DNA from: Argopecten irradians
Lineage: Eukaryota > Mollusca > Bivalvia > Pectinida > Pectinidae
Length of the DNA stretch: 64,000 nt
Direction of reading: 5' to 3'
NCBI RefSeq assembly: GCF_041381155.1
Contig: NC_091138.1
Coordinates: 33,101,604-33,165,603, forward strand
In this document: one piece after another, positions 6,446 through 53,700 of the stretch
How positions within the stretch are numbered: position 1 is the first letter of the stretch
Layout: each line of letters opens with the position of its first letter
The notes under the pieces: model-generated
What the model saw: only the letters and a program-made list of their open reading frames with translations
What the model was told of the DNA's origin: nothing
Databases searched by the model: none
Translations under genes and position numbers: made by a program

Positions 6446-7722
6446 TTAGTGGTTCATAGTTAGTCCTACTTGGTCCACATTTAGGGTGGCGGCTGTGCTG
6501 TACGGGTCTATATCCATGTCTTCTTTCAGGGGACAGTAGTCAAAGTTTGTCTGCTCTCCAGCATCCGGACTATGCTCAGGTAATCCAGATATCTATGATT
6601 AAAGAAAAAAAATTATCATTAAGTTATGCATCGACCCAAAATAATTGAGGCCAACAAATCATTTTCTTGACTATTATTTATCATAGAACATCATTAATCC
6701 CTATAATTAATTAATAATGTATGTTTATGTGGTTAAGAACTTAGCTCCATTTGTACGCTGGAATGAAGGAAGGTATTCCATCCAAAATATCCAAAATATG
6801 GTTAACATCAAGGTTTGTCAACCGTGTCAGTGCCTGGGATAGCCTATCCCTGTTTAATAAAACTCATCTCTGTTTGATAACTGATACTAGAACTGTCGTC
6901 TAGCATGTCAACTTATACTCACTCCCTCACCCCTACAAACATGCTAATGATTTCAGATTTACCTGTTTCAAATATAAATTACGCAGATATTCACTGTGTA
7001 AGGATTTCTACAACTAAGTTTCATTGAAATCTCTGCAGTAATTTGGTTTACAAAGGGGCTTTACTCTTAAAATAGTGCAGGTATTTTGTTTCCATAAGGA
7101 TTATTGCACCAAGTTTCTTTGAAATCCTTCAAGTAGTTTAGAAGGAGTAGTCCGTCAATTGTTGTTTCTACAGACAGACGGACAACCTGAATCCAATAAC
7201 CCCCTTCCCTAACTTCTTAGCAGGAGACATAATAACCCACCTTAGCCTAACATAACTAGTGTGTGATGAATTAATTAGCACTACACACCTGAACTTGTCC
7301 ATTGCTCCCTGGCACACCATATTGTGGGTTCTCAAAAGCTACGGAGTCTGGTCGAGAAAATCTTTTCAGCATTCCACGTTTCCTGCAACAATTTGTTTTG
7401 GTTAATTCATTTATTTAAGTAAACGCTAAATAAAAGCAATTAAGTAATGCATAGAATCTTATTTTTCTTAACTCTTAAAAAATAAGCAGACAACCTCTTG
7501 TTCTCACCTGTTCTCACCTGACATATTGTAACACATCAGACAACCTATTGTTCTCACCTGTTCTCACCCGACATATTGTAATACATCAGACAAACTATTG
7601 TTCTCACCTGATGAATATGAAGCCGATGACCGCTGCGGCAACCAACACTAGGATCAGTATGACCACACCAACGATTGCGCCAACATTGGCTCCTTGTGTG
7701 GCAAGACTTCTGCTCTTGACCG
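6446..7722 (-). CDS. Exons 34-36: transmembrane helix and cytoplasmic tail
   Basis: Exon 34 (7722-7608) encodes a single helix of about 25 Val/Ile/Leu/Ala residues, starting VGAIVGVVI and ending GFIFI, followed by the stop-transfer RKRGMLKR spanning into exon 35 (7382-7289). The tail is about 80 residues and contains an FENPQY (NPxY-type) motif and a Tyr/Asp-rich stretch ([15 protein letters not shown]). The stop codon is at 6448-6446. No kinase or phosphatase domain is present, so signalling would have to go through adaptors. Confidence 0.85.
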
Positions 7723-10700
7723 CTTAATATAAAAAAATCAACAAATTAAACATCACTTTTTATTCATGTAACAAATTGCCAAGTATTATGTAGACAATAG
7801 AATAGTATTTAGCAGCTAATTGCTTTAACAGAAAGACGATGTTAAATTTTAGTGGCTATAATTTTTCGCAATCTAACTTTAAATGTACCAATGATTAAAA
7901 CATTTCTCAATATCAAATTTTTGTGATTAAAGCAATGTCCTGAAAAATCAGGCAAACTGTGCTAGTTGGTTACAACTCTTACAAGTCACTTTTTACTCAG
8001 GTATTATAACCTTCAAATATGCAAATAAATCAAAATACTTAGCTCTTTAAATTATTACTGAAGTAAATATACCGTTTTGAGTTTTAAGTTGAATAGTTGT
8101 AGAGTTGCTTCCCTTTCCGTATGCACTGTTAGCAGCCACTTTGATAGTGTACAAGCTACCGTAGTTCAGATCAGTCAGTATCAGTCTGTTTTCAGTTGTT
8201 GTTTGCTGGAATTGAAAAAATAAAATGTTTGATATTTATCTCATAATGTCATTTTCAAAGTCAATATTGTTTCTGAATCCACATGACAAAGACAATAGAC
8301 ACATTTGTCCATAACCCCAAACAATATATTATCTGTAATTACATGACAATTTATTTGCACATTACAGAGTTATCTGCCCTTACACATAAGTAGCTATTAT
8401 TACATCATGATGTTGTCACATTTTTCACAGAAAACATTCTATTTTTCACTCATAAGGCCATAGTTGTTTTTTTTCTGTTTTGCGTCCATATGCTGATAGG
8501 TTTTGCATCCCATGAGAAAAACATACAAACCACTTTTTTTAGGAACTGAGGAATAAAAGATGCATGCAACAGAATAAGTATTGATTCCTACATTTCTACA
8601 TATGTAAAATCTAACAAAACTCTTCAGAAAATCAAAATGACACAAAACAAAAATTAACACAACTGTGGCCTAAATTAAAGATGTCAGAGTTGATACCTAC
8701 CTTTAGTGTCAGAGTTGATACCTCTCTTTAGATAAAGGTAATATGCAAATGAAGACATAATAGGATAGATTTAAGATAAACCCTTATCTATTAAAAAAGT
8801 TTTGATGTCACCTACCATATAAGAAGTTCCGTCACTGCTGAAGTAAACTGTATAGCCCTGTACCGAACCTTTCTGGGGAGGCATCCATGTTAACATGATA
8901 TCATTGTAGTCTTTCAAAGTTCCTTTAAGATCAAGTGGTTCTGATGGTGGAATACCTTAAATGGTCGATAAAATTGCTTGATTCACATATTTGTTTTACA
9001 TATTTGTTAAAGATTTTAAAGATAAAAGATATCATAATGAGAAAATGCTGTTAGCCAATCAAACTACCAGTCTCAAGTAACTTGTAACAAACGTTAATTG
9101 TAAGATAGTTAATTATTATGATATGTATTGCATATTTGATGTACCGTAATTTGTTGTTTTAATATCGTTTTTTGCAAAACAAGTAAATTATATATTCAAA
9201 CAAAGGATTAGCATTGCCACATGGGACAATATATTTTGATAATTTGATATTTCAAATTTGCTGAATTTGAATAAATAAAATTAATGTAACAATTCAAAGG
9301 AATGAAGACATTTGGATTTGTATTATATTTCAGTTCAAATTACACAATATTTTGAGATATCTGAGTTTAAGTTGGTCCCAAAGTACCTACCTCTGACAGT
9401 GAGATTCCTGGCATACCCAGGCAAACTCTGACCGGCCTTGTTCTTAGCAATCACCCAGAAGCTGTAGGTCGTGACCTCGGGGTAATTCAGGGTCCAAGTG
9501 TGTGTTGTGTTAGACTGCAGGGAAAGAGACAAAACATATTAATGTTAATGAAATTCATAGATAAATATAAACAAGACAATTCTGTGAATTCCCAATTAGA
9601 TGTTAAACAATAACAGATGTCACAGTGACCTTTAATTTTGTAAAATCATTCCAAATCTATTTAAGATAACTGCACTTAACAATTTCCCCAATTTTTGGAG
9701 ATTTCTCTACCACATCCTCAACAGACCCTTTGGTTAAACAACCAAGAACATTGGCCCTTTAGTCAAGTAATTTCTCTATCACACCCTTGAAACCTCAATT
9801 TTGAGATTTCACTGTTCCACTCTTGGGAGGTCTCGGAATTATCATATTGCTGATAATTTCCAAGGAGATGAAATATTCAAGATTTTGTGGGACATTGGGA
9901 TGGTGGAGAAAATTTCATCCAAGGAATAATAAGTAATGAGCATTTCCACAGCCATATCGTTAAGTTTTGATTTTGCTGAAATTTCAGTGCTTTATGTACT
10001 AGGTCTTCATCCCGAATTTGTCTCCGTTAACATAACCAGCTATACAGCGATTTAATAAGCCCTTACACATTTCATATACTTACCACGGATTCGTGTTTGA
10101 CCATATTGTTGTTGTTATTGCTGTACCAGATCTGATATACATCAATGGTGTTAACGTCAGCAGGCTGATCCCAGTTGACCTCAATAACATGGCCCTTAAG
10201 TAGTGCTATCACGTTCAATGGTTGGGACGGTATCTTTTCTGTGGACGATGAAAAAGAGAAAAAAAATAGCATAGGATCTTTATAATCTTAATGCTTTCTA
10301 TGTGCAACTTTGGTTAATTAAGAAAAAAACATTCAGTATACTGTAAACCAACCAATGTATAGTGCTTGAAATTCGCAGGGTGCATATTTTGAACCTTCAT
10401 CAACAGAACATATTCGCATGGTTTAAATTTCGCGATAATACAGTGATTCCTTTATTTGCAATATTAGCACTTAACAGTAGTTAAATTCAAAATATTTTGC
10501 TGGCGTTTTGAATTCTTAGATTTTAGGAAAATAGAGTATACATAGAATAAACCTCCCCTTGCAAAAACCCATTATACACTAATTGAAGCATAGCGTTAAG
10601 ATTAAAATTTCTTACCTAATCCTTCTTCAATACAGTTCAAGATAGGGTTGACTTGATCGACACATTCGTAGATTCTGGGATCATCTATGTCAGGAACCAC

Positions 10701-13700
10701 ATTACCACAGAAGTCCTGACAGAACGGTGACACACCGTTATCTTTACAACACTTTGTATGGTCCTTACCATCTGAAAGACAAGTTTTCCATTACCCCTTT
10801 TTTGTAATCATTCATTTTTTTTTTTTTTTCAATAACAAAATTGAAATCATCAATCAATTTTTTTTTTTGTTAACTACAGTAATCGCCATGATCACCATCA
10901 TCATCAAACTCATTATCTTCATCATCATTGTCAACGATCCCATATCCAACAAGGACATAGTCATTCAGATCCCCCGCCAATGGAGATATCAAAGCTGAAG
11001 TAAGTTTGATTGTGGAGACTTATGTGTATGAAAAAAAAAAAAACAGGAAAAAGGAAGTTGAGCTAAAGAAAGATGGAGTATAGTTCAAGTAGAGCGGGGC
11101 TGCAATTGTTGAATCAGATATACAGCCTTGACATTTATATTAGACTATATACACAAAGATGGGTGGAGTTTTGCAAAGTAACATTTACCATTTACCATGA
11201 TATTTTCAGCAATGTTTCCATGGTAACGGAAAAAGTGCAAAAAATGAAAACCTAAAAATAGCAAAAGGTACTACTAGACCATAAAAAGAATGTGTCTATG
11301 AAGTTTATTGGAAATATCTCTGCTGGTTTTAGAGTTATGCTCCGGAAATGAACCTGCTACAAAAATATGATATTTTCAGCAATGTTTCTATGGTTACTGA
11401 AAAAAGTACAAAACGTGATAACCTTAAAATAGCAAAAGGCACTACTAGACCATAAGACTAATGTACCTATGGAGTTCCGTGCATATATCTCAACCGGTTT
11501 TCCAGTTATGCTGCGGAAACGAACCTGGTACAAAAATATGATATTTTCAGCAATGTTTCCATGGTTACAGAAAAAAGTACAAAAAGTGAAAACCTTAAAA
11601 TAGCAAAAGGCACTACTAGACCATAAGACCAATGTGTCTAAGAAGTTTCGTGGAAATATCTCTTCTGGTTTTAGAGTTATGCTCCGGAAACGAACCTCGT
11701 ACAAAAATATGATATTTTCAGCAATGTTTCCATGGTTACGGAAAAAATGCTAAAAATGAAAACCTAAAAATGGCAAAAGGCACTACTAGACCATAAGACC
11801 AATGTGTGTATGAAGTTTTGTGGAAATATCTCTACTGGTTTTAGAGTTATGCTCCGGAAACCATTCGTACGGACGGAAGGACAGACGGACGGACGGACGG
11901 ACGGAACCCATTTGTATATCCCCCGCCAACTTCGTTGGGCGGGGGATAATAACAACATCACCTTTGGTAAGCGTATAGCTCAGAGTCAAACTTCAAGACC
12001 ATTTGCTACCTGGTGACCGTTCCATCACTACCACAGTATCATATTATCAGACCACTATCTAGTGTACTGTATCCTTCCTAGACACCCTAAGGTGTCACCA
12101 GCATAGTGTGTTCACCCTCACGACCTCTGTACATCCTAATGACCTTCAAGGCCAATTAGGTACTAAAAGTCACATGAGTTTACTGAAGAAGCTGGGAGCA
12201 CTTACCTGAAGCACATGTGACATAGTCCTAAAAGAGAGCCACACACAATACATACTTTACTGGGTTCTGTACGACTAGTGGGGAACACTTACCTGTGGCA
12301 CATGTGACATAGTCCTCAAAGAAATTCACACAGGATGCATACTTGACTGGGTTCTGTACGACTAGTGACAAGTCTACCCTGTAGGTACACAGATCCATAC
12401 AAACTCCTGTCACATTCCTCTGTGAACAGCAAACTGTAACAAAAACAATGTTTAAATTCCTGTCACATTCCTCTGTGTACAGCAAACTGTAAACAAAAAC
12501 AATGTTTAAACTCCTGTCACATTCCTCTGTGTACAGCAAACTGTAAACAAAAACAATGTTTAAACTCCTGTCACATTCCTCTGTGTACAGCAAACTGTAA
12601 CAAAACAATGTTTAAATTCCTGTCACATTCCTCTGTGTACAACAAACTGTAACAAAAACAATGTTTAAATTCCTGTCACATTCCTCTGTGTACAACAAAC
12701 TGTAACAAAAACAACCTGTCACATTCCTCTGTGTACAACAAACTGTAACAAAAACAATGTTTAAACTCCTGTCACATTCCTCTGTGTACAGCAAACTGTA
12801 ACAAAAACAATGTTTAAATTCCTGTCACATTCCTCTGTGTACAGCAAACTGTAACAAAAACAATGTTTAAACTCCTGTCACATTCCTCTGTGTACAGCAA
12901 ACTGTAACAAAAACAATGTTTAAATTCCTGTCACATTCCTCTGTGTACAGCAAACTGTAAAAAAAAAACAACCTGTCACATTCCTCTGTGTACAACAAAC
13001 TGTAACAAAAACAATGTTTAAACTCCTGTCACATTCCTCTGTGTACAGCAAACTGTAACAAAAACAATGTTTAAATTCCTGTCACATTCCTCTGTGTACA
13101 GCAAACTGTAAACAAAAACAATGTTTAAACTCCTGTCACATTCCTCTGTGTACAGCAAACTGTAACAAAACAATGTTTAAATTCCTGTCACATTCCTCTG
13201 TGTACAACAAACTGTAACAAAAACAATGTTTAAATTCCTGTCACATTCCTCTGTGTACAGCAAACTGTAAACAAAAACAATGTTTAAACTCCTGTCACAT
13301 TCCTCTGTGTACAGCAAACTGTAACAAAACAATGTTTAAATTCCTGTCACATTCCTCTGTGTACAGCAAACTGTAAACAAAAACAACCTGTCACATTCCT
13401 CTGTGTACAACAAACTGTAACAAAAACAATGTTTAAAACTCCTGTCACATTCCTCTGTGTACAGCAAACTGTAACAAAAACAAAAATCCTGTCACATTCC
13501 TCTGTGTACAGCAAACTGTAACAAAAACAATGTTTAAATCCTGTCACATTCCTCTGTGTACAGCAAACTGTAAACAAAAACAATGTTTAAACTCCTGTCA
13601 CATTCCTCTGTGTACAGCAAACTGTAACAAAACAATGTTTAAATTCCTGTCACATTCCTCTGTGTACAACAAACTGTAACAAAAACAATGTTTAAATTCC

Positions 13701-16700
13701 TGTCACATTCCTCTGTGTACAACAAACTGTAACAAAAACAATGTTTAAACTCCTGTCACATTCCTCTGTGTACAGCAAACTGTAACAAAAACAATGTTTA
13801 AATTCCTGTCACATTCCTCTGTGTACAGCAAACTGTAAACAAAAACAATGTTTAAACTCCTGTCACATTCCTCTGTGTACAACAAACTGTAACAAAACAA
13901 TGTTTAAATTCCTGTCACATTCCTCTGTGTACAACAAACTGTAACAAAAACAATGTTTAAACTCCTGTCACATTCCTCTGTGTACAACAAACTGTAACAA
14001 AAACAATGTTTAAACTCCTGTCATCACATTCCTCTGTGTACAGCAAACTGTAACAAAAACAATGTTTTAAACTCCTGTCACATTCCTCTGTGTACAAGCA
14101 AACTGTAACAAAAACAATGTTTTAAACTCCTGTCACATTCCTCTGTGTACAGCAAACTGTAACAAAAACAATGTTTAAACTCCTGTCACATTCCTCTGTG
14201 TACAGCAAACTGTAACAAAAACAATGTTTAAACTCCTGTCACATTCCTCTGTGTACAGCAAACTGTAACAAAAACAATGTTTAAACTCCTGTCACATTCC
14301 TCTGTGTACAGCAAACTGTAAACAAAAACAATGTTTAAACTCCTGTCACATTCCTCTGTGTACAGCAAACTGTAACAAAAACAATGTTTAAACTCCTGTC
14401 ACATTCCTCTGTGTACAGCAAACTGTAAACAAAAAACAATGTTTAAACTCCTGTCACATTCCTCTGTGTACAGCAAACTGTAACAAAAACAATGTTTAAA
14501 CTCCTGTCACATTCCTCTGTGTACAGCAAACTGTAACAAAAACAATGTTTGAACTCCTGTCACATTCCTCTGTGTACAGCAAACTGTAACAAAAACAATG
14601 TTTATACTCCTGTCACATTCCTCTGTGTACAACAAACTGTAAACAAAAACAATGTTTAAACTCCTGTCACATTCCTCTGTGTACAGCAAACTGTAACAAA
14701 AACAATGTTTAAATTCCTGTCACATTCCTCTGTGTACAACAAACTGTAACAAAAACAATGTTTAAATTCCTGTCACATTCCTCTGTGTACAGCAAACTGT
14801 AAACAAAAACAATGTTTAAACTCCTGTCACATTCCTCTGTGTACAGCAAACTGTAACAAAAACAATGTTTAAACTCCTGTCACATTCCTCTGTGTACAGC
14901 AAACTGTAAACAAAAACAATGTTTAAACTCCTGTCACATTCCTCTGTGTACAGCAAACTGTAAACAAAAACAATGTTTAAACTCCTGTCACATTCCTCTG
15001 TGTACAGCAAACTGTAAACAAAAACAATGTTTAAACTCCTGTCATATTCCTCTGTGTACAGCAAACTGTAACAAAAACAATGTTTAAACTCCTGTCACAT
15101 TCCTCTGTGTACAACAAACTGTAAACAAAAACAATGTTTAAACTCCTGTCACATTCCTCTGTGTACAGCAAACTGTAACAAAAACAATGTGTACAGCAAA
15201 CTGTAAACAAAAACAATGTTTAAACTCCTGTCACATTCCTCTGTGTACAGCAAACTGTAACAAAAACAATGTTTATACTCCTGTCACATTCCTCTGTGTA
15301 CAGCAAACTGTAAACAAAAACAATGTTTAAACTCCTGTCACATTCCTCTGTGTACAGCAAACTGTAAACAAAAACAATGTTTAAACTCCTGTCACATTCC
15401 TCTGTGTACAGCAAACTGTAACAAAAACAATGTTTAAACTCCTGTCACATTCCTCTGTGTACAGCAAACTGTAAACAAAAACAATGTTTAAACTCCTGTC
15501 ACATTCCTCTGTGTACAGCAAACTGTAAACAAAAACAATGTTTAAACTCCTGTCACATTCCTCTGTGTACAGCAAACTGTAAACAAAAACAATGTTTAAA
15601 CTCCTGTCACATTCCTCTGTGTACAGCAAACTGTAAACAAAAACAATGTTTATACTCCTGTCACATTCCTCTGTGTACAGCAAACTGTAAACAAAAACAA
15701 TGTTTAAACTCCTGTCACATTCCTCTGTGTACAGCAAACTGTAAACAAAAACAATGTTTAAACTCCTGTCACATTCCTCTGTGTACAGCAAACTGTAACA
15801 AAAACAATGTTTAAACTCCTGTCACATTCCTCTGTGTACAGCAAACTGTAAAACAAAAACAATGTTTAAACTCCTGTCACATTCCTCTGTGTACAGCAAA
15901 CTGTAAACAAAAACAATGTTTAAACTCCTGTCACATTCCTCTGTGTACAGCAAACTGTAACAAAAACAATGTTTAAACTCCTGTCACATTCCTCTGTGTA
16001 CAGCAAACTGTAAACAAAAACAATGTTTAAACTCCTGTCACATTCCTCTGTGTACAGCAAACTGTAAACAAAAACAATGTTTAAACTCCTGTCACATTCC
16101 TCTGTGTACAGCAAACTGTAACAAAAACAATGTTTAAACTCCTGTCACATTCCTCTGTGTACAGCAAACTGTAAACAAAAACAATGTTTAAACTCCTGTC
16201 ACATTCCTCTGTGTACAGCAAACTGTAAACAAAAACAATGTTTAAACTCCTGTCACATTCCTCTGTGTACAGCAAACTGTAAACAAAAACAATGTTTAAA
16301 CTCCTGTCACATTCCTCTGTGTACAGCAAACTGTAACAAAAACAATGTTTAAACTCCTGTCACATTCCTCTGTGTACAGCAAACTGTAACAAAAACAATG
16401 TTTAACCCGTCACTCTCTGGTACAGCAAACTGTAACAAACAATGTTTAACTCCTGTCACATTCCTCTGTGTACAGCAAACTGTAACAAAAACAATGTTTA
16501 AACTCCTGTCACATTCCTCTGTGTACAGCAAACTGTAAACAAAAACAATGTTTATACTCCTGTCACATTCCTCTGTGTACAGCAAACTGTAAACAAAAAC
16601 AATGTTTGAACTCCTGTCACATTCCTCTGTGTACAGCAAACTGTAAACAAAAACAATGTTTATACTCCTTACAGCAAACTGTAAACAAAAACAATGTTTG

Positions 16701-19700
16701 AACTCCTGTCACATTCCTCTGTGTACAGCAAACTGTAAACAAAAACAACTGTAAGTAGTACATGCAGTTTAAAATAGAACTGTCCATTACCAGGCGGCTA
16801 ATTTATACTTCTTACCTCTGTCATCTAACAACTTTCTCTCCCCACCCCCTTACCACTGTTTTGTACGAGGCACCGTGAAAAAGGTTGAGGTATCTGTTCT
16901 GAAACAGACTATGCATATCTACACTGTATAAGGATAAGTTACTGCCACCTAGTTTTGTAGAAATCCCTTCAGTAGTTTAAGAATAGTTGGTCGATCATAG
17001 TGTCTACAGACAGACTGACAAACAACCTGAGTGTATACTCCCACCCCCTCCACCCTTACAAACTGCGTGGGAGGGGGTATAACTATGTGCAGTCACTATT
17101 TCTGCAGGTACTACATTCAAATTCTAATACTTGGTATAAGCTTGTATGAAATAAGAAATTCCACAGGGATCTTGACACCATCCTCTGAAAAAAAATGTAT
17201 ATCTGTTGGTTTTCTGATAGGTCCCAAAATGCAGATATGCAAGGACCAAGGGGAATCTACAATTAAAATTTGACATGAATTCCTACCAAACTTTCAAACT
17301 CCAATCATCAATATCCATAAAAGAGTATTAATATATATCACCCTACCTGATACATTTTTCGCCTGAGTAGGTGTAATGGTAGGTGTAGGAGGAGTTGTGT
17401 ACTGTTCTGAAAATGAAAACAACAAAACTATTTAGAAAATAATAAGGAAATATATATCACTTTTACTGATAATTATATATAATTTAGAAAGTCTGTGAAT
17501 GTAGTATAGATCTCAAAATTGGCATAAAGATATCTGATAATAAATCAAAATCAGACGACAAGTTCCTTTGGCATTTAAACCTTAATGATTTACAGTTATC
17601 TCCCCTTTGTCAAATGCCAACCCCACATCAAATTGACACTTTATATGCCCATCATTTTTTTCCAATATAATTTTACGACCGCTTGGATAAAAAACTTACT
17701 TTTTAAGTAGACAGTTCCATTATGAGCTCCAAACTGATTCCATCCTTCACAGTTATATTTTCCTAAGTCTGACTCGCGTACCAGTAAAATGTGTAATTCA
17801 GCACGCAGCTCATGTGACTCAACATCAGGATGTTGGAAAAAGGCTCGCCGATAGCTGTAGGGAAGCAGTGTGTCATCCTGGTACCAATTAACGGTTTTGG
17901 GGAAGCCTCTAAAGGTACACTTGAGGATAGCACTAGATCCTTGGTTCACATCCGGTACGGTGGCTCCATTTATAGCGGATATTGTCGGCATGTCTGTAAC
18001 AACATCCAGGAATAATATATGTAATGATAGGTGATGAGACAAATTCACACCTGACACTAAGACAAACATACATCTGACATTAAGACAAACTTACATCTGA
18101 CATTAAGACAAACTTACATCTGACATTAAGACAAACATAAATCTGACATAAACAAACATCGACATTAAGACAAAATATCTACAGACAAACTGACATTAAG
18201 ACAAACTTCTCTGACATCTGAAATTAGAATGAACAAATACATCTGACATTAAGACAAACATAGACAATACATCTACATTAAGACAAACTAATTACATTAA
18301 GACAATTCATCGAGACAAACTTAATCTGACATTAAGACAAACATACATCTGACATTAAGACAAACTTACATCTGACATTAAGACAAACATACATTGATGA
18401 CATTAGACAAACTTACATCTGACATTAAGACAAACCTTACATCTGACATTAAGACAAACTTACATCTGACATTAAGACAAAACTTACATCTGACATTGAG
18501 ACAAACTTACTAATCTGACATAAGACCATTAAGACAAATTTACATATGACATTAAGAGACAAACTTACATCTGACATTAAGACAATTTACATCATGACAT
18601 TAAGACAAACTTACATCTGACATTTAGACAAATTTAAATTTACAAAATGACAAGACAAACTTACATCTGAAATTAATTAAACAAATTTCATATGACATTA
18701 AGACAAACTTACATCTGAAACAAACTTACATCTGACGTTAAGGTTGAGACTTTTTGTTGAAGTTGCCACATTAGGTACGGAGGCTGTACACTTGACAAAC
18801 AATCCCTCTGTGTCTGGGGCTGGCTGTGACAGTGATGGTACGAGCGTCCTGAGTTATTCAGTATCCAGTAGACAGAGGTGGGGGTTGGAGAACCAAACGC
18901 ATCACAGACCAACTGTACTGACTGGCCATTAGGGACCAAACCATCGGGAATCTGGTGGACACTGACATCCATAAAACCTGAAAACAAAGAAATAATATTG
19001 TTAATACATATTTACCTACATATATCTGGCAAATTACTTAATAACCTAATTAAGGATACAACATGTGCTGGTGTTGGAAAACTACCGACAAAATATTAGT
19101 CTTTATGACGTCAAGCTTGATTGTGATGTCACTTTCAACAGGCATGATGCCATAAAGAAATATGGCTTACAGGAGGTTTGTTTGTGAAGCAAATTTAATC
19201 AAGGTGAGAGAAAGGTCTATTCAATCATCTTTCACCTCATCTGCCTTGGGTGAAGGTCATTCTCTTATAAGCAGGCCACATATCATGTCAGATCTATTTG
19301 ACCCCTGTAACCTTGAATGACAGTCAAAGTCATTCATTTCAACAAACTTTGTAGTCTTTAATCCCAGCATGCTACAGGCCTAACATCAGGTTCTGGAGTT
19401 ACTAGTTATTGACAAGAAAATGTTTATTGCTTTTTCAATATTTAGCCATGGTAACCTTGAATGAAGGTCAAGACATTTGATCCAACAAATAAAAGAGTAA
19501 CCGGCTTTACATCAGCATTAACTTCAGGCCCAACGCTGGGGTTGTTTTTAAGGTTTTATCACATTTGGCCACTTTAACATTGAATGAAGGTCAATGTCTT
19601 TTATTTAAGCAAAAGGTTGATATCTGCATACCTTGATTTTTGAGAAGAAGTCATTTAAAGGGAAAGTTGACGGCAGACGGCCAGAGCGATGAATTGTGGA

Positions 19701-37700: not shown

Positions 37701-40700
37701 AGTACTACAATACTACATCAATTGAAAACGCCATTTCATTCCAGTATACATATACATTAAGCTTTGTTGTGCTCTTTGGGCGAAATGACTATATACATAA
37801 AAATAATTCTTACAGCTTTTTCAAACTATTTCGTTTCTAGCAGCAGTAGTTTGATTGGCCATTTCCAAAGGTCACCAGAATGTGACCCCTATTGGGATGT
37901 TGTCAGATCCTCTTAATAATGGATCTGTGTTTTGATCAGATTGTTAGAATAACTGCTGGATTATCTTAGGAAAAGAATACTTGAGTACACTGAATCATTT
38001 AATTTAGATAGTCAAATTAGATTTTTTTTTTTTCAAAATTTAATAAATGTCAATAATTCTTGACTGATTGTCAGAATTTTAAGTCACCTATTTATCAGTA
38101 AGAGAATTTAGAAGGAGGGGTTAGGGAAAAGGATAATTTCTTTTAAATTCAATACAACTCTAGCTTTACTGGCTGTTGGAGTTATCTGTGAACTGACCTG
38201 CTGGTTGCTGGATACTATAGCGACTCTCAACACCCTGCTCTATCAACACTTTCAGGCCAGTAGAAATCATAGCATCATGGTCCACAAACTCCCATATCAC
38301 CTTTAGAACAATAGATTCTTAATTAGAAATAAGGTAATTAATTGTATATTTTCTTATATAAAATATTCAATTCACTCAGTATACCCAGTAATTAATATGG
38401 GTATTACATTTTCATGATTATCATTGGGTGAATATATTTAACATACCTTTATAACCTGAATGAAAAATTTTAATTTGTAAAAAGTGAATTTTAATACTTG
38501 TTTTTAGTCAAGATTGTTAAAATATTTACCTGCAAAACTAACTATCTTTACAGTATGCATAGACCCAACCAAATTTTATAAAAGATTTTAACATATTTGA
38601 TATAATTGAACTATAAACACAAAGTGTGCAGTGAGTCATATTTCACTATGAAACGGTAACTATAAGGTACTGACATTTAAATGTTTTAGTATACATACAG
38701 TGTTTGATCCTAAGTTCATCACTTTGCAATCCATTCTTATCGTACTTCCAACATCAGCATTATGTTGTAGGGAACTGGATGAATCTATCACAGGCACGGC
38801 AAGTACAATAAGGCCTGCAAACAAACATTAAATATGTAATAATACTATACGCGGTGGCCAAGTGGTTAAGATGTCCCGACATATAACCACAAGCCCTCCA
38901 CCTCTGGGGTGAGAGTTCGAATCCCAAGTGGAGCAGTTGCCAGTTGCTGACTGCAGGTCAGTGGTTTTTCTCCTGGTACTCCGGCTTTCCTCCATCAACA
39001 AACCTGGCACGTCCTTAAATGACATTGGCTGTTAATAGGACATTTAACTAATAAAACCAAACTATATATGACTTCTTCAGGGATCTTCCACTCTGAACTT
39101 TCAAAGAACTTTCCTACTCAAATACCACAACCAATACTTTTTCAGACTTAGCCCTTAAGCTGGCTCAGATAGCCCTATATATAAGATACTCATACAGCTT
39201 AATACATTTACTATATAAAATTTATGAACTATACATATTTAATTTATTTCTACTCATATATCCTCATCAAACTAAGTAATTATTTCTATTGTAACATTCA
39301 TGTTTCAATGGTAACAGAAAAAATGCAAAAAATGAAAACCTAAAAATAGCAAAAGGCACTACTAGACCATAAGACCAATGTGTGTATGAAGTTTCGTGGA
39401 AATATCTCTACTGGTTTTAGAGTTATGCTCCGGAAACCATTCGTACGGACGGACGGACGGGCGGACGGAACCCATTTGTATACCCCCCGCCAACTTCGTT
39501 GGGCGAGGGATAATTAATTTATCGCATGGAATCAGAGAGATTATCTGTATTGACAATTTTAAAGTCCCGTAACTCTCGCAAATATTGACGGATTTTGTCC
39601 AATATCGAACTCATCTGAGCTCTCAATGATCTATAGCAATATACCAATTTCGGATAAAATCGGACAATAAATACTAAAGTTATTGCTTGGAAACCTTTTT
39701 CCCGACACTCACACCGACATATATATACCTGGTAGTGATACAGTCGAAACTCGTTATCTGGAAATTCAATTGACTTACGAAAAAAATTCGACTCATCCGG
39801 ATTTCGACTCAAACATAATGTCATTCGGTTCGGTCAGAATGTGGTTTTCAACATTCTTACCTTATGACTATTACAGCCAGGTACATGCCTATTACCGTGA
39901 TTAGCATATTATCGTGATTTTCCAACTGATAAGGTTTGTATTAAATCTTTTTAGTTGAACTGGTTGTTCAAAATAAACAAAAACAGCCCAGGAATTGACT
40001 TTGACTCAACCGGAGTTTTGAGTCATCGAAATTCGAGTCATCTGATCTTAAAATACATACACAAAGAAGGACAAAAAAAGGGACTTAAAAATTAATTCGA
40101 CTCAACCGGAATTTCGACTCAAGCGATTTTGAGATAACGAGTTTCGACTGTACCTTTGTAACGCCCTTACGTTGCAGGTGACACAAACCATACCAGTATG
40201 TGTGGCTCTTGTGTTGCAGACGACACATTAATGTATAACCTTAAGTTCGAAATCCTCTGACAAAATCAAACATCACATTATATCTACATGTAATCTAATA
40301 CGAATTGTATATAAGGAAATAAGTTAGAAAGGAAAAGTCATGATAATATGGCACACAAATATTACCTAGAATGTATGACAGGCATACATACCTAAAAACT
40401 TATCATTTAAATAAGGATAAAGCTAAAATAAAAACAAAAGTTGTAAATGGAAAATGTAGTCTGACAATTAATATGACAAATCACCTTGTCAGGTAAATAC
40501 ATGTTTTCATGTACCTATATTAATGCATAAATATGATTATATTATATTAATAACCAGATAACATGTAATTTAATAACCTCAATGTCTAGAAAAAAAATAA
40601 TCTGATATTTTTTTTGCAACTAGATTTTGAGTGCTGTTTATGTTGACTATGTACACATTTATTATAACTTACCAAAATGAAATAATATGGCCAACAATAG

Positions 40701-40718
40701 AAGGCCCTGATACCCCAT
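6446..40718 (-). CDS. Ig/FN3/DB-module/PAN type I transmembrane protein (IGDB-like), 36 coding exons
   Basis: Predicted cell-surface adhesion or receptor protein of about 1647 residues; ligand unknown. Exons, 5' to 3' (high to low): 40718-40673, 38814-38699, 38300-38198, 37567-37445, 36928-36875, 36315-36187, 35730-35575, 35203-35046, 34360-34219, 32793-32656, 32197-32045, 31599-31448, 30974-30842, 30485-30420, 29869-29735, 29324-29157, 27443-27294, 25627-25492, 24577-24314, 23877-23824, 23235-23116, 22930-22784, 20667-20510, 19929-19794, 18977-18730, 17993-17700, 17406-17347, 12433-12293, 10771-10616, 10238-10084, 9514-9391, 8955-8816, 8205-8073, 7722-7608, 7382-7289, 6592-6446. All introns are GT-AG and codon phases agree at each junction except for one-base slips in exons 17 and 25. 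Order: signal, Ig, linker, DB-DB-FN3, DB-DB-FN3, linker, DB-DB-FN3, PAN, linker, DB-DB-FN3, Ig-Ig, linker, DB-DB-FN3-FN3, membrane helix, tail. Known relatives: nematode Ig-like and FN3 domain proteins with DB modules. Confidence 0.88.
6885..7260. repeat. Degenerate hairpin-tail repeat copy (family with CTCCCACCCCCTCC)
   Basis: The stretch resembles the copy at 16865-17090: both contain a 'GTGTAAGGATTTCTACAACTA'-like segment, a 'TTTAGAAGGAGTAGTCCG'-like segment, and 'CAGACAGACGGACAACCTGA' before a CCCCC-rich end. Here two internal copies are visible and the terminal hairpin is decayed. Confidence 0.5.
7487..7610. repeat. 50-bp repeat (2.5 units) carrying copies of the exon 34 donor
   Basis: Units start at 7487, 7537 and 7587 with CAGACAACCT. 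On the minus strand each contains CAG|GTGAGAACAATAG, the same as the true donor of the membrane exon at 7608. The first two units also carry a second GTGAGAACAG copy. Only about six exon bases are included. Confidence 0.75.
8073..10238 (-). CDS. Exons 30-33: FN3-5 and FN3-6
   Basis: Exon 30 (10238-10084) has [11 protein letters not shown] and VNWDQPAD. Exon 31 (9514-9391) has [17 protein letters not shown]. Exon 32 (8955-8816) has [11 protein letters not shown] and LTWMPPQKG. Exon 33 (8205-8073) has [20 protein letters not shown]. These are two complete membrane-proximal FN3 domains, each split at a phase 0 intron. Confidence 0.85.
10616..12433 (-). CDS. Exons 28-29: fifth DB pair
   Basis: Exon 28 (12433-12293) encodes [16 protein letters not shown] and ends EDYVTCAT. 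Exon 29 (10771-10616) encodes [18 protein letters not shown] and later [10 protein letters not shown]. The first 33 bases of exon 28 together with 20 bases of the preceding intron form the unit of the large array at 12434-16745. Its last 75 bases with the donor are duplicated at 12194-12280. Confidence 0.85.
10966..11950. repeat. Hairpin-tailed repeat element with 171-bp tandem core
   Basis: Four core units begin near ATGATATTTTCAGCAATGTT at 11197, 11367, 11538 and 11709. The core is followed by a (ACGG)n run at 11868-11905 and a terminal palindrome CCCCGCCAACTTCGTTGG-GCGGGG at 11921-11947. The start shows CCCCCGCCAATGG. No transposase frame is present. A single-unit copy is at 39303-39513. 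It is probably non-autonomous; the class is uncertain. Confidence 0.8.
12194..12367. repeat. 87-bp tandem duplication of exon 28 3' end and donor
   Basis: Copy 12281-12367 holds the last 75 coding bases of exon 28 plus 12 intron bases. Copy 12194-12280 repeats it with substitutions and keeps an intact GTAAGTG donor, but has an in-frame stop if read through. Within it a good acceptor (CTCTCTTTTAG) precedes 22 bases and the duplicated donor, so a cryptic micro-exon is possible. Confidence 0.85.
12434..16745. repeat. 53-54-bp tandem array, about 80 units, copies of exon 28 acceptor
   Basis: The unit on the minus strand is about 20 bases of the intron end (AAACATTGTTTTTGTTACAG) followed by 33 bases matching the start of exon 28 (TTTGCTGTACACAGAGGAAT...). 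One-base variation (GTAACA/GTAAACA) and a few shortened units occur. Array copies read TACACAG where the real exon reads TTCACAG. The open frames across the array are periodic artefacts. It fills most of the intron between exons 27 and 28. Confidence 0.95.
16865..17090. repeat. Repeat element with terminal CTCCCACCCCCTCC hairpin
   Basis: It ends in TATACTCCCACCCCCTCC, an 18-base loop and GGGAGGGGGTATA, giving a stable hairpin. This is preceded by ACAGACAGACTGACAAACAA. A related, more decayed copy lies at 6885-7260. No coding content. Confidence 0.65.
17347..17406 (-). CDS. Exon 27: Pro/Thr linker
   Basis: A 20-codon phase 1-1 exon encoding [15 protein letters not shown] followed by AKNVS. 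It is probably an O-glycosylated spacer like exons 5, 14 and 20. It is separated from the next exon (12433) by an intron of about 4.9 kb, nearly all of it a 53-bp tandem array. Confidence 0.75.
17700..18977 (-). CDS. Exons 25-26: tandem Ig domains, exon 25 with a one-base frame slip
   Basis: Exon 25 (18977-18730) starts with [20 protein letters not shown] and the tryptophan in VYWILNN. The second half ([20 protein letters not shown]) lies in another frame, and the exon is 248 bp where phase 1-1 requires a multiple of three, so one base appears missing near 18850. Exon 26 (17993-17700) is a complete Ig domain with [17 protein letters not shown] and [13 protein letters not shown]. The last bases of exon 25 with its donor are the unit of the 23-bp array in the following intron. 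Confidence 0.8.
18050..18730. repeat. 23-bp tandem array, about 29 units, copies of exon 25 donor
   Basis: The minus-strand unit CTTAATGTCAGATGTAAGTTTGT matches the last 13 bases of exon 25 (CTTAACGTCAGAT) plus the first ten intron bases (GTAAGTTTGT). Many units are degenerate by small indels. The array begins at the exon border and runs through most of the intron towards exon 26. Confidence 0.88.
19140..19765. repeat. Decayed copy of the 145-bp 'GACCTTGAATGAAGGTCA' family
   Basis: Repeated motifs TGACCCCTGTAACCTTGAATG, CAAAGTCATTCATTT and ATCCCAGCATGCTACAGGCC match the array at 40.8-43.6 kb. The segment ends with a GACGGCAGACGG stretch and an imperfect AAGCTCACTTG...CAGGTGATCT hairpin. About four diverged units. 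Confidence 0.7.
19794..20667 (-). CDS. Exons 23-24: FN3-4
   Basis: Exon 23 (20667-20510) encodes [16 protein letters not shown] and the core MLSWSPPR, then [12 protein letters not shown]. Exon 24 (19929-19794) encodes [18 protein letters not shown], a canonical FN3 F-strand. The intron upstream of exon 23 is almost filled by a 27-bp tandem array (20700-22560). Confidence 0.85.
20700..22560. repeat. 27-bp tandem array, about 65 units, degenerate
   Basis: The plus-strand unit is CACACTTACTGTAACTAGTA plus CCATATT. Many units have indels. On the minus strand each reads ACTAGTTACAGTAAGTGTG and so carries a donor-like GTAAGTG. Unlike the arrays by exons 14, 25 and 28, no adjacent exon border matches the unit. 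It occupies most of the intron between exons 22 and 23. Confidence 0.88.
22686..22771. repeat. 42-bp tandem duplication
   Basis: TATGTTCAAATAGTGTTGAA and the following 22 bases occur twice in a row with period 42, just inside the donor of exon 22. Copies are nearly identical, so the event is recent. Confidence 0.85.
22784..23877 (-). CDS. Exons 20-22: third linker and fourth DB pair
   Basis: Exon 20 (23877-23824) encodes [18 protein letters not shown], a Thr/Asn-rich spacer with N-glycosylation sequons. Exon 21 (23235-23116) encodes [16 protein letters not shown]. Exon 22 (22930-22784) encodes [18 protein letters not shown] and ends with YIVTCFSQ. All three are phase 1-1 exons. Confidence 0.82.
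24314..24577 (-). CDS. Exon 19: PAN/apple-like cysteine domain
   Basis: An 88-codon phase 1-1 exon with six cysteines: KTCKYV near the start, [11 protein letters not shown] and AACVGYTYD in the middle, GTCEIF, and RKDCSID at the end. The C-x3-C helix followed by C-x-G-[YF] is typical of PAN/apple folds, which bind proteins or carbohydrates. It occurs once, between FN3-3 and the third linker. A PAN domain has not been checked in nematode relatives here. Confidence 0.72.
24668..24795. repeat. Two tandem small palindromes
   Basis: TTTGGCATTCATAGACAATATGAATGCCAA and, about 75 bases on, TTGACATTCATAGCC/GATATGAATGCCAA. Each forms an 11-12-bp stem, and both are followed by CTGGACAGAGGC. They lie within the intron between exons 18 and 19. 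Confidence 0.6.
25492..27443 (-). CDS. Exons 17-18: FN3-3, with a one-base frame slip
   Basis: Exon 17 (27443-27294) starts [15 protein letters not shown] and reaches the core LSWDP. The second half of the domain ([20 protein letters not shown]) is in another frame of the same exon. The exon is 150 bp where flanking phases predict 149 or 152, so one base near 27368 appears extra. Exon 18 (25627-25492) completes the fold with [19 protein letters not shown] sequencing or assembly error is the simplest reading because the protein continues well on both sides. Confidence 0.75.
25926..26470. mobile_element. MITE-like element with CAGTGGAAACTCGG termini
   Basis: The left end CAGTGGAAACTCGGTTAATACG pairs with the right end ...ATCAATCCAAAGTTTCCCGCTG; internal AGTTATCCGAG/GAGTTATCCGG motifs are subterminal. 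Length is about 545 bp with no transposase frame. CAGT-type ends and TA-rich flanks fit non-autonomous pogo/Tc1-mariner relatives. Family assignment is by termini only. Confidence 0.65.
27798..27930. mobile_element. Fragment of a CGCACCTGTGTACAAGCCGC repeat
   Basis: Contains ACAATAAGTCGCACCTGTG and ACATAAGACGCACACGTG, each followed by TACA and AAGCCGCA. This resembles a common animal DNA-transposon-derived repeat with 'ataagtcgcac' motifs. Only one end is recognisable. Confidence 0.35.
27931..29156. other. Intron sequence without recognised element
   Basis: Part of the intron between exons 16 and 17 of the Ig/FN3/DB gene. A 116-codon plus-strand frame at 28098-28448 has no recognisable domain and AT-driven Phe/Leu/Ile content, and is not called as a gene. 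Confidence 0.4.
29157..29869 (-). CDS. Exons 15-16: third DB pair
   Basis: Exon 15 (29869-29735) encodes [16 protein letters not shown] and later [13 protein letters not shown]. Exon 16 (29324-29157) encodes [18 protein letters not shown] and later [12 protein letters not shown]. Cysteine spacing matches the other DB modules. The second member of each pair begins with an acidic/basic DGR-H-type lead, a recurring difference between first and second DB modules. Confidence 0.85.
29983..30432. repeat. 14-17-bp tandem array, about 28 units, copies of exon 14 donor
   Basis: The minus-strand unit is AACTTTACAGGTAT, with ATGAT and AAG spacer variants. The exon 14 end AACTTTACAG and its donor GTATGAT form the first unit. 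There is a higher-order order of spacers (ATACC, ATCATACC, ATCTTACC, ATCC) repeated in blocks of about 120 bp. Confidence 0.9.
30420..30485 (-). CDS. Exon 14: Pro/Thr linker
   Basis: A 22-codon phase 1-1 exon encoding [16 protein letters not shown] followed by LFYNFT. It is a likely flexible spacer. Its final ten bases plus the start of the intron (AACTTTACAG|GTAT) are the unit of the tandem array that follows immediately in the intron (29983-30419). Confidence 0.8.
30842..31599 (-). CDS. Exons 12-13: FN3-2
   Basis: Exon 12 (31599-31448) encodes [14 protein letters not shown] and the core tryptophans in [12 protein letters not shown]. Exon 13 (30974-30842) encodes the second half with [15 protein letters not shown]. 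The split between the two halves is at phase 0, as in all six FN3 domains of this gene, and the outer boundaries are phase 1. Confidence 0.82.
32045..34360 (-). CDS. Exons 9-11: second half of FN3-1 and second DB pair
   Basis: Exon 9 (34360-34219) completes FN3-1 with [18 protein letters not shown], the usual conserved leucine-tyrosine region. Exon 10 (32793-32656) starts [12 protein letters not shown] and exon 11 (32197-32045) starts [18 protein letters not shown]; both are DB modules. The intron at 32794-34218 holds a hairpin-tailed repeat element in its middle. Confidence 0.85.
32940..33972. repeat. Hairpin-tailed repeat element, forward copy
   Basis: Ends at 33939-33970 with AGCCCACCATCTGATGATGG-TGGGCT, preceded by AAGGCGATTTGAATAGCCC and a run of GGACGGAAGGACGGACGG. 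Upstream are several diverged core units with AGCGGTAACAAAC, 'GGGGAACCTGTATATGAAAT' and AAGATCCCTTC. The same family is at 54424-55890 in the opposite orientation. Confidence 0.75.
34586..34685. mobile_element. Internally deleted MITE (TTAAAGATGCTCC family), 100 bp
   Basis: Ends are TTAAAGATGCTCCACCGCCG and the reverse-complementary GCAATGGAGCATCTTTAA. The middle of the roughly 350-bp full element is missing. Full-length relatives are at 43688-44040, 44950-45315 and 62323-62668. Confidence 0.8.
35046..36315 (-). CDS. Exons 6-8: DB pair and first half of FN3-1
   Basis: Exon 6 (36315-36187) begins [16 protein letters not shown] and exon 7 (35730-35575) begins [18 protein letters not shown]. 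Both show the DB-module pattern CC-x(6-9)-C-x3-C with a later C...C pair. Exon 8 (35203-35046) is the first half of an FN3 domain, with [11 protein letters not shown] and the core tryptophan in [10 protein letters not shown] exons are phase 1-1; the FN3 half-exon is phase 1-0. Confidence 0.85.
36875..36928 (-). CDS. Exon 5: Pro/Thr linker ending in NFT
   Basis: An 18-codon symmetrical phase 1-1 exon encoding [18 protein letters not shown], a flexible and probably glycosylated spacer. It is followed by the DB pair. Its 3' end, AACTTTACAG|GTAA, is nearly identical to that of linker exon 14 (30420-30485), which supports duplication of linker exons within the gene. Confidence 0.75.
37445..38814 (-). 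CDS. Exons 2-4: N-terminal Ig domain
   Basis: Three exons encode one Ig fold at residues about 16-129. The B-strand cysteine lies in [10 protein letters not shown], the C-strand tryptophan in VIWEF, and the F-strand signature in DQGHYKCSI, so the disulphide pair and tryptophan core are all present. The G strand ends in VHVLNIT. Phases run 1-0-1-1. The intervening introns contain no recognised element. Confidence 0.85.
38846..39066 (+). mobile_element. tRNA-derived SINE
   Basis: The head GCGGTGGCCAAGTGGTTAAG resembles a tRNA A box, and GAGAGTTCGAATCCC is a good B box. A body follows with GTGGTTTTTCTCCTGGTACTC, CCTGGCACGTCCTTAAATGA and a short A-rich tail (CTAATAAAACCAAA). Possible target duplications (ACTATA) flank it. 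It lies in intron 1, opposite in strand to the gene. A decayed reverse copy is near 45340-45480. Confidence 0.8.
39303..39513 (+). repeat. Single-unit copy of the CCCCGCCAACTTCG hairpin-tailed element
   Basis: Matches the last core unit and tail of the element at 10966-11950: AAAAATGCAAAAAATGAAAA, ATGCTCCGGAAACCATTCG, a GGACGG run and the hairpin CCCCGCCAACTTCGTTGGGC. This copy is truncated at its left side. Confidence 0.8.
39741..40150. mobile_element. MITE-like element with CAGTCGAAACTCGTTATC termini
   Basis: The left end CAGTCGAAACTCGTTATCT and the right end AGATAACGAGTTTCGACTG are near-perfect inverted repeats flanked by TA. Internal TTCGACTCAACCGGA-type motifs repeat. Length is 410 bp with no transposase frame. 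It probably belongs to a non-autonomous pogo/Tc1-mariner group, like 25926-26470. Confidence 0.75.
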
Positions 40719-40779: not shown

Positions 40780-40805
40780 CTGCAAAAGAAACAAAAACCA
40801 ACACA

Positions 40806-43570: not shown

Positions 43571-43687
43571 AAAAAACCATAACACAATTTATTTGTTAAA
43601 TTGCTTTTTGCTTATTTTTTTTTTTTATAGAATACAGTACTAGTGTACATGATTTTGTAATAACTATGGTCCTGACAGTGTGCAAGC

Positions 43688-48184: not shown

Positions 48185-48517
48185 GGCCTACCATCCTTGA
48201 TACTCCAGGGCTTCCGATCACTTACGATCTCTACACCCCTGGACTATCTCACAGTGAAATTGAAGGCAGCTCAGCGGAAAACATTTGACCAATCACGGGC
48301 TAGCAAATATTTCATTTGAAGACTACAGAGAGAGCGACGCCTAACATCAAAGCCACAGAGTCAACCACAGTACCGTTAAATACGGCTCTTTTGATGTACA
48401 TCAAATGTCTAAGTTACCTGTTCTATTCTGTTGCCTCCAGTTTTACTATGAGATAGTCCAGGGGTGTAGAGATCGTAAGTGATCGGAAGCCCTGGAGTAT
48501 CGAGGATGTGGGCCTAC
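48185..48517. mobile_element. Inverted-repeat element with about 65-bp arms
   Basis: The left arm TTGATACTCCAGGGCTTCCG... with CACTTACGATCTCTACACCC reappears inverted at 48449-48517 with few mismatches. The central 190 bp is unrelated to any gene. One arm alone is found at 3257-3300 (GTAAGTGATCGTAACCCCTG). It is nested inside the long inverted-repeat interval. Confidence 0.75.
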
Positions 48518-48952
48518 ATGTATATCATATTCACAGATAAAGAAGTCTTTAATCATTATAACTACATACACAACAATATATCCAATATATAACAATCAGA
48601 TACATGCATACACAAAAAATATATCTGAACACTGTTACATTTACGAGGATTTTTTCACTGTCTTTTTCTATGTAATCCTGTCAAAATGCATGTCAAATGA
48701 AATTTATCTTTACGATCCAAATAAACAATCGGCAGTTGAAAAAAAAAGTTTCAATTGCTTTCCTAAAAACATTTGATAATCGATTGGTATTAATTATTTA
48801 AAAATATTACAACGTGCAGCCCAGCGTCTATCAGATGTCTCCTACGGAAAATGTTTGCATGAATCTGTACAAGTAGAATATTATAGTTTTCGTATAGATC
48901 TATTAACGAAAGCCGATTGGGCTCATTTTAGAAACTTACGTGTTATTACGTG

Positions 48953-49078
48953 AAACATTGGCGCAGTATTACGCGAAACTTTGGTGCGGTATTACACGAA
49001 ACGTTGGTGCGGTATTACACGAAACTTTGGTGCGGTATTACACGAAACTTTGGTGCGGTATTACACGAAACTTTGGCG
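48953..49078. repeat. 24-26-bp minisatellite, about five units
   Basis: Units contain GCGGTATTACACGAAACTTT plus GGT. The first copies read GCAGTATTACGCGAAACTTT. It is noncoding. Confidence 0.8.
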
Positions 49079-50726: not shown

Positions 50727-53700
50727 TTGCAAGTTACTTGAAGACTAAACGGATTTGAGAAATTGATCAAAAATGTCTCTGGCTGATGAGTTAATTGCTG
50801 ATTATGAAGATGCTGACGATGATTTGGGGGAACCTGAAGCAGAGGTGGATTCTATGGACATAACAGAAGTGGATGAAAAGGCTGAAGTTGACTACAGAGA
50901 TAAAGAAACTGTGAAGAGTGTTGCAAAGTTACGGGATAGTGAACAAGTATGAATAGTTTTATGGCAATACATGTTCATAAATTGCTAAGGTCAAGAATAT
51001 ATAGCAACTGTATCAACAACAATTAATTCAGAAGAAAGTTTGCATTATATATAAACAGTTCATCGTACATTTCATATTTACATTTTCATACCTATGATAA
51101 TTCAATTTATTTGTTATCTAAACATCATTCCATTTTAAGCATGTCTTTCTGATTATAATATACTATATTTACAGTTGTTTCTTAATTTTTCAGCTCTCTA
51201 ATATTTTAACGAACATCGAAAAATATGCATCACAACCAAGAAGACAGAAAGGTGAATTTTTAAAGTTTTTACAGTTATTTTTCAGCTGTTAGGAATTGAA
51301 CAGAAATGTTGATGGTTGCAATTTGTTATTTGCCCATTTATAGTGCTATCTCACTGAAGCATACTGCTAAAGAAACCAAATACCACATTCCACCCATTCA
51401 CAATATACTGACAGAAATATATGATATCGCGAAAAAGTTTTAAAACTGCAGATATATGTACAGTTAAAGGCAGATGGGATCTTTATCATTTTATGTTATA
51501 TATTCTTTTGATGATACTTTTTGATTGACTAAATGTTGTCGGCTTATTACAGTTGCTGGACCCGTTGAGGCTGATCCAGAGTACAGACTTATTGTGGAGG
51601 CTAATAATATTACTGTAGAAATTGACAATGAAATCAGTAAGTGTATATCTATATATATTGGATTCAACTTTTAGTCTTCTAAATGGAATTCAATTGGAGG
51701 CTAATAATATTACTGTAGAAATTGACAATGAAATCAGTAAGTAAATATCTATATATATTGGATTCAACTTTTAGTCTTCTAAATGGAATGCAATTGATGT
51801 ACTTTCTATATAACATACTGGTTATGGTAGATGGATCTTTCTGTTTGTCATACTGTGCTTTGCATAGAATTTAAACAAACAACCCAAGTATATGTGGTAA
51901 ATTTAATTCTTCCTGTGTCTATAGTTGATAGTTTAAAGATCTTGTAAAGACATGTACTATAATATCAAAGTATTCTGTCAAAATCAGTTATGCTTGATTG
52001 ATGAACTGTTTGATTTATGATTTTACATTTACAGATGTAATTCACAAGTTTACAAGGGATCACTACTCCAAAAGGTTTCCTGAGTTGGAGTCGTTAATCC
52101 AGACTCCAATGGAATATATCAAAACAGTTAAGGTAAAAGAGTTGTGATCACTGTAAACAAAACTAAACATTATGTCCAAAATATTTGTGGTAACAGAATT
52201 TAGGTTACTTTAAAAAAATGCCCATTACAGTTCTGGTAATGATATTTAGTTACTGTAAAAGATATGTCCAACTTCCATAACTACTGTAAAGCTTATTTAT
52301 TAGTTATTTGCTAATTGTTGGTCTGTTGAAAGCAACACATTGTTTAAAATAATTAATTGTAAATGACGAATATTGTCACAGAATTTTTATCTTATTGCTC
52401 TTATAGAAAGAGGTGTCTAATACAATCAAACCTGTCAGTTATTATCTTTATCTAAATGATTGACCTGTTTTAGTCATATGTTTTTTCTTAATCATTTACA
52501 CAAGTTTTTCTATTGCTAGGAACTTGGAAATAATATAATGGAAAACTCCAAAAAGAATGAAGTCCTCCAAGAAATTCTCGTGCCAGCTACAATAATGGTT
52601 GTAAGCGTGACAGCATCTACAACACCAGGGTAAGTGGTGAAATACAAGGGATATATTTTTATTACTATTTTTTCTGAAAGTATTGACAGTCTCTATGAAA
52701 TTTCATGTAAGCCCTCTTGGGCCTTAGTTAACCAAATTGCATTATGGGAAAGATATGAATACAACCCACTTGATTGGTGGCCATCTTGCATTGGTCATCG
52801 ATCATTGCAGTTTGTTATTGCTTTTTCTTTGAAAATACTTATTGGAAATTTTAAGGTTTGAAAGATGGTTTTAGAATGCTCGAGACTTAGACACTGTATT
52901 AAATGATTATATTTACAGAACAAGTCTGAGTACAGAAGAGATGGCTACAGTGATGGAAGCCTGTGATATGGTCAGTACAAAATTGGTCAATATGTAGTAC
53001 TACATGTAAACACTGAACATGTTTGAATTGGTAATTCAAAAATTAAAACCTACAGTCAAACCTACATGTAGATAACTCAAATTGATATGCCAGGTAACTC
53101 AATTACCCTGATTAATTCAGTGAGTTTTTTGGCCAGACTTAGTCTAACATTATATTCAAGTAAACTTACCTAAAATATACTCATGTAACTCAAAATGTAA
53201 TCATGACCCCTCTGACTGGGAAATAACGAGGTGTGAATGTAGAATGAAATAATTGTGTTATGTACTGGTTATAAAGATATGTTATTGTGACATTACTAGT
53301 ACTGAACAAATTCATGGTTATTATGTAGTCATTTTCATTCCCTGTCAATGTTCCTACATTGTATAATATATCAATAACATGTGTATAACAAACTATGCTA
53401 CTAGCAAATTAATTCTATTGGTCTCCAGAGGTTCCTTATAACCATATTTTACTGTACTTTTAGCCAAAATTTCAGCATCAGTCCTCTCTAAAAGTACAGT
53501 GTGTAGTTTTAATTGAATCATGTTTTTAATAACAGGCAGTAGATCTGACTGAGTACAAGGCAAAGATATTCTCCTATGTGGAATCGAGGATGACCTTCAT
53601 CGCTCCTAACGTCACTATCATTGTGGGAGCGTCCATTGCTGCTAAACTTATGGGTAAGGCTATGTCAGTGTTTGGTTTGTCTCCGTTAGGTTGGGTTTGT

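Follow-up and report, generated by a model that had tools for sequence, protein, structure and literature searches.

Tandem repeats that span exon–intron boundaries are known from amphioxus as mirages, a term introduced for the Adh3 gene (Canestro et al., 2002; PMC3087553). According to the globin paper, mirages occur at both 5' and 3' borders of amphioxus genes, including the globins BflGb6 and BflGb9, have haplotypes of 3 and 6 units, and leave regular splicing undisturbed (PMC3087553). PGBD5 and troponin C provide further amphioxus examples (PMC3902484). Arrays of the same kind lie at exon borders of two genes in a 64,000-nucleotide stretch of the Argopecten irradians genome (hereafter, the window). 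The original prediction knew of no named phenomenon that matched them; the amphioxus work had already supplied the name.

As in the mirages described in the accessible amphioxus text, the arrays of A. irradians are built on a minisatellite-type unit laid across an exon–intron boundary (here, a gene-model junction), affect donor and acceptor borders, and keep the AG or GT in many copies, though not in all (210 of 238). By these three features, which we judged from genomic sequence alone, the arrays count as mirages. Unit lengths are 14–100 bp in the window, as compared with 10–72 bp in Adh3 and 150–160 bp in the amphioxus globins (PMC3087553). Mirages were described in cephalochordates, gene by gene, whereas in this bivalve they occupy 6 of 96 window junctions and 12 of the 275 junctions in a sample of other genes. 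Furthermore, unlike the mirages described in the accessible amphioxus text, the arrays reach up to ~82 copies and are in measured excess over random placement. A literature search that covered largely non-subscription papers found no report of mirages in molluscs. The arrays are a new occurrence of mirages, apparently a more frequent one than the few lancelet cases described would suggest, with a measured enrichment of high-copy arrays, and take a phenomenon known from a handful of lancelet genes into unrelated mollusc genes where it can be tested statistically.

Repeats detected with Tandem Repeats Finder (TRF), as ours were, also lie at exon–intron borders in human segmental duplications, where 162 alignments had internal tandem repeats at the boundaries and 27 intron modifications were left after inspection (PMC2812944). 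The human case differs in concerning recent paralogues with altered intron structure, and the accessible part of that report makes no mention of border enrichment (PMC2812944). Tandem duplication is also a route to intron gain (cited to Rogers, 1989; Hellsten, 2011), as in Drosophila (PMC2891723) and in the potato RdRp gene, where a tandem duplicate crossing an intron–exon boundary created a new intron (PMC4974935). The partial accounts available of intron gain share with our arrays a local tandem duplication bearing splice sites, but they involve the making of a new intron, whereas the copies in A. irradians sit in an existing one. We rejected intron gain as a description of the window arrays: the exon-proximal copy is where each exon ends, and each junction has one intron, in an exon chain whose exons 18 and 26 have apparent frameshifts.

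Border arrays in two genes of the window

Two genes host the window arrays (Table 1). The larger one encodes a receptor-like protein with what we take to be Ig, FN3 and PAN-like domains, assigned by eye rather than by family search. Its DB modules come from a Pfam search, and a genome-wide search for a paralogue of the gene with this module found none, all of the genome's matches (4/4) falling at 6444..40718. The second gene is presumably PRPF31, a name given by protein similarity. A self-trained gene finder overran into the repeats, and both models were therefore built by hand from reading frame, phase and splice consensus; the 96 curated junctions (48 donors and 48 acceptors) are thus gene-model junctions. 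Once merged, the arrays with a period of at least 7 (TRF) form 24 blocks, which together occupy 21% of the window. Six of the 96 junctions lie inside such arrays and none of the remaining 90 does, in agreement with the original prediction of six arrays that each include a splice junction. All six predicted loci stood, whereas four exon numbers proved to be one higher (15, 26, 29 and 35) and the array limits needed slight correction.

Table 1. Host genes, border arrays and a contrast array in the window (positions are those of the window).
Feature	Position	Strand	Structure or border	Junction	Exonic part of unit
Receptor-like gene	6444..40718	-	37 exons; curated chain with AG/GT borders		
PRPF31 (presumed)	50774..~58519	+	13 exons; exon chain		
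50-bp unit, 2.5 copies	7487..7610	-	Donor, exon 35	7608	3 bp (TRF)
87-bp unit, 2 copies	12194..12367	-	Donor, exon 29	12293	75 bp (TRF)
53/54-bp unit, ~82 copies	12401..16748	-	Acceptor, exon 29	12433	33 bp
23-bp unit, ~30 noisy copies	18037..18735	-	Donor, exon 26	18730	
14-bp unit, 30–33 copies	29964..30429	-	Donor, exon 15	30420	
100-bp unit, 2 copies	51595..51796	+	Donor, PRPF31 exon 3	51636	
Contrast array: 27-bp high-copy unit and two shorter stretches	20719..22466	-	Intron between exons 23 and 24		

The six arrays share one anatomy. The junction lies in the end copy nearest the exon, the exon is whole, and the other copies are on the intron side. The part of the unit that is exonic ranges from 3 to 75 bp; for example, the acceptor array begins at 12401 because its unit includes exon bases. 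Two of the arrays (12194 and 12401) flank the two edges of a single exon (29). The presence of ~82 near-identical acceptors beside one exon raises the question of how the correct site is chosen, and border arrays also bear on the movement of intron borders. Copies of the noisy array at 18037 were aligned one by one with a 17-bp period.

Four stretches representing five of the six arrays were searched against the 845-Mb genome at the DNA level, with simple repeats and very common words skipped and the 29964 array not among the queries. Each matched its own locus only, so the repeats look local. The result agrees with the earlier claim that the units are unrelated and do not form one repeat family. 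A transposon or introner family was rejected for these four stretches (five of the six arrays), which had no related copies at many loci, and the same search with the four stretches found no second haplotype.

The contrast array of Table 1 reaches no junction. A gap of 52 bp separates it from the acceptor of exon 24, and its unit has a donor-like site in the sense orientation as well as an acceptor-like site; it is possibly a relic border array. Separately, the FN3 or Ig domain of the receptor-like gene apparently stays in frame only with a frameshift in each of exons 18 (27294–27443) and 26 (18730–18977), and the arrays at 18037 and 20719 have many indels; residual assembly error is one explanation for both.

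Excess of high-copy arrays at exon borders

The sample outside the window was drawn from profile matches listed genome-wide for the myosin head (82), fn3 (150), kinase (142) and kinesin (130) families. DNA was fetched around 167 of the listed matches (40 myosin, 44 fn3, 63 kinesin and 20 kinase), giving 79 blocks and 223,386 bases. For myosin and fn3, we took the best-scoring loci and additional matches within them; many of the fn3 matches derive from a single region of C16. Kinesin and kinase stretches were hand-picked, ahead of any inspection for repeats, on the density of matches and on short open frames. A script used splice scores together with HMM matches to call junctions, which repeats can attract, and 277 of 334 possible ends were accepted. 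Arrays contained 14 of these 277 junctions before curation and 12 of 275 after it. We removed C13:20961174 and C3:47909088, where there are stop codons in the HMM match and we did not find the called border credible, and shifted C1:2220637 by 34 bp to a presumed conserved border, omitting it from copy-by-copy counts. The pattern recurs in unrelated genes, which supports part of the original interpretation.

Errors of assembly or of junction calling could in principle create such a pattern. The apparent frameshifts of exons 18 and 26 and the noisy arrays suggest residual sequence errors, and the scripted calls required two removals and one shift. However, the window junctions were curated by hand, and five sample border arrays fall at protein positions that we recognise as strongly conserved. 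These presumably conserved borders belong to kinesin exons starting YNCSLFAYGQTGSGKS and DSLGGNAQTLM and one ending LEESHSTLR, and to kinase exons ending LDYLQTYNIIH and starting ICDFGLAR. An artefact is for these reasons very improbable. Lancelet PGBD5 repeats of a like kind were, in the accessible text of their report, backed by re-sequencing (PMC3902484), which also argues against an artefact.

Plain coverage did not reveal an association with borders. In the window and sample combined, arrays contained 20 of 373 junctions (5.4%), as compared with 207 of 2162 intron points located 80–180 bp away (9.6%) and 1095 of 7175 deep points (800–1480 bp). Junctions were thus less often covered than intron points, and coverage alone yields no enrichment. 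We also counted straddlers, arrays with one end within the final 60 exonic bp and the rest extending into the intron, against an expectation from intronic density. Arrays of all copy numbers gave 17 straddlers versus 9.6 expected in the window and sample (ratio ~1.77, p = 0.03) and 12 versus 7.7 in the sample only (ratio ~1.56, p ~ 0.11). The pooled ratio was 2.34 at donors (p = 0.015) and 1.20 at acceptors (p = 0.41).

Arrays of at least five copies carried the excess, with 14 straddlers versus 3.0 expected in the window and sample (ratio 4.7, p = 2.9e-5), 11 versus 2.1 in the sample only (p = 1.4e-4) and 3 versus 0.8 in the window only (p = 0.07). Those 14 straddlers were distributed between donors (8) and acceptors (6). 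Arrays with fewer than five copies, which are few, had no border excess in the window and sample (3 versus 6.7 expected). The excess was similar for a threshold of at least six copies (13 versus 2.3 expected, p = 1.5e-5) and when all arrays cut by a block edge were counted as high-copy (ratio 4.6, p = 3.4e-5). One of the 14, C2:23209014, has 5.5 copies by length over period only and 2.0–2.6 by TRF. Shuffling the same arrays within their own blocks, a comparison close to the one proposed in the original prediction, gave a mean of 3.74 straddlers of at least five copies for the sampled genes and window, and the observed 14 appeared in 0 of 4000 trials; arrays below five copies gave 3 versus 5.03. 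The window arrays alone gave 5 straddlers versus 1.97 expected (p = 0.03), a count of 5 and not 6 because the 12194 array is above the 60-bp exonic limit.

High-copy ends formed a sharp peak at the exon edge, with 12 of them (1.12 per kb) within the final 30 exonic bp versus 23 in 173.3 kb of intron. Deeper in the exon (-200 to -60), there were 0 high-copy ends and 1 low-copy end. The median copy number was 7.8 in the 18 border arrays versus 2.6 in 96 others (p = 8e-4); the copy-number split is post hoc, having been set after these medians were seen, and calls for an independent test. Two of the 28 high-copy arrays classed as intronic, C13:20957524 (acceptor) and C16:29383665 (donor), straddle by eye junctions that have no HMM match and were left out of the straddler count. 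Three other high-copy arrays (C10:3912289-3912546, C15:10725561-10725817 and C16:29394749-29395034) begin or end within ~5 bp of a likely junction. They have no clear exon bases and were left uncounted, which may make the border association look weaker than it is.

These counts bear on whether tolerance alone could account for the arrays, with duplications landing anywhere and border straddlers being as harmless as intronic ones, in the absence of any border bias. Such a process is consistent with the low-copy counts, with raw coverage that is not raised at junctions, with the near absence of array ends deeper in the exon and with an exonic share that has no register (see below). It is unlikely nonetheless, as the 4.7-fold enrichment of high-copy arrays, an excess also found outside the window, goes beyond it, and so do high-copy straddlers in numbers above those of shuffled placement. 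Duplications seem to start randomly at borders, but high-copy arrays accumulate or persist there. With low-copy arrays unbiased and high-copy ones enriched at borders, what needs explaining appears to be expansion or persistence and not initiation.

Register, splice signals and proposed growth of the arrays

Across 17 arrays, the exonic share of the unit varied between 0.06 and 0.86 and had no fixed register (KS p = 0.28). With low-copy duplications not enriched and no register, initiation looks random relative to the border. Slippage or breakage right at the splice site, which the original prediction had offered as a way of starting duplications at junctions, would explain why array ends cluster at borders. 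Against it stand the lack of an excess of low-copy duplications, the lack of a fixed register and the fact that donors and acceptors are both affected. We consider targeted initiation decidedly unlikely.

The original prediction had also suggested that repeats are retained for the splice signals that they carry. Repeated signals could aid exon recognition or yield alternative splice forms, and most intronic copies do keep the GT or AG: 210 of 238 across 17 arrays, or 129 of 157 when the 12401 array is set aside. Donor-like sites in arrays off the called borders are also consistent with retention. Sites of at least 7 bits were present in 15 of 96 such arrays in the sense orientation versus 6 of 96 in antisense (Wilcoxon p = 0.003), with a background in intron segments of 5.6% sense versus 4.4% antisense. 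Some of the sense-biased arrays may, however, be unrecognised border arrays, as were 2 of the 28 high-copy ones on inspection.

Several results count against functional retention. Mismatches affected 167 of 2616 signal bases versus 515 of 7401 bases elsewhere in the unit (17 arrays), a weak test because copies within one array are non-independent. Mismatches are thus about equally common in signal bases and in other bases of the unit, and we see nothing to suggest that working copies are selected for. In the acceptor array C9:39328067, the 6 intronic copies have 12 AG bases, of which 6 are changed, with copies reading AA. Of 18 unit lengths, 8 are multiples of three (6 expected), without a clear bias in frame. 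Furthermore, all 68 upstream acceptor copies that fit a strict pattern in the 12401 array lead to an in-frame stop (0/68 open), which 56 of the 68 reach after 10 codons, and reading through to the second donor of the PRPF31 array also meets an in-frame stop. Retention for working signals is, in our view, quite unlikely.

The arrays are probably mirage-type minisatellites in which a duplication with random breakpoints includes an exon edge, is tolerated, and then grows or persists with a bias towards the border. The proposal builds on direct observations, namely how the arrays are built, that they recur in different genes, that the searched units are of local origin, that register is lacking and that the excess is confined to high copy numbers. 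In the first step, a duplication, local and in tandem, would by chance take in the exon edge, its breakpoints bearing no relation to the splice site. The duplication would be tolerated since the exon-proximal copy still gives an intact exon and splice site while added copies go into the intron; a border duplication would thus survive because this copy is intact. The array would then add copies via ordinary slippage or unequal exchange, with splicing presumably using the exon-proximal copy. The high-copy excess would reflect favoured expansion or persistence and not targeted initiation. As its cause, we favour an expansion bias tied to transcribed exon borders, because donors and acceptors are both hit and the copies appear free of selection on the signal.

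A stronger version of this idea, which we advance tentatively and think somewhat doubtful, is that transcribed exon borders are expansion hot spots in this lineage, where tandem duplications would arise at any position but junction-bearing ones would grow to high copy number via a transcription- or splicing-coupled process. If so, thousands of junctions (by extrapolation) would bear arrays of intact decoy splice sites. The genome would then offer, on a large scale, a natural test of how one site is chosen by the spliceosome among many identical ones, and the decoy arrays would form a reservoir for moving intron borders.

Other repeats in the window

Several other repeats were noted in the window. 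A long tandem array just upstream of exon 1 of the receptor-like gene (40826–43418) has nested periods of higher order (145/291/436 bp). An intron of PRPF31 contains a 155-bp repeat with the AAGATGGCC motif (54505–55786), and similar-looking sequence is found at ~33600–33940 in an intron of the receptor-like gene; this looks like a dispersed repeat. A 171-bp repeat followed by an ACGG run (11197–11905) also has the look of a dispersed element; a related copy lies ~28 kb from it (~39300–39515). An open frame at 61496–61903 has a YADD stretch that resembles a fragment of a non-LTR reverse transcriptase. Finally, there is an inverted repeat at 48190–48510 (arms at ~48190–48260 and 48440–48510), with a related-looking piece near 3240–3290.
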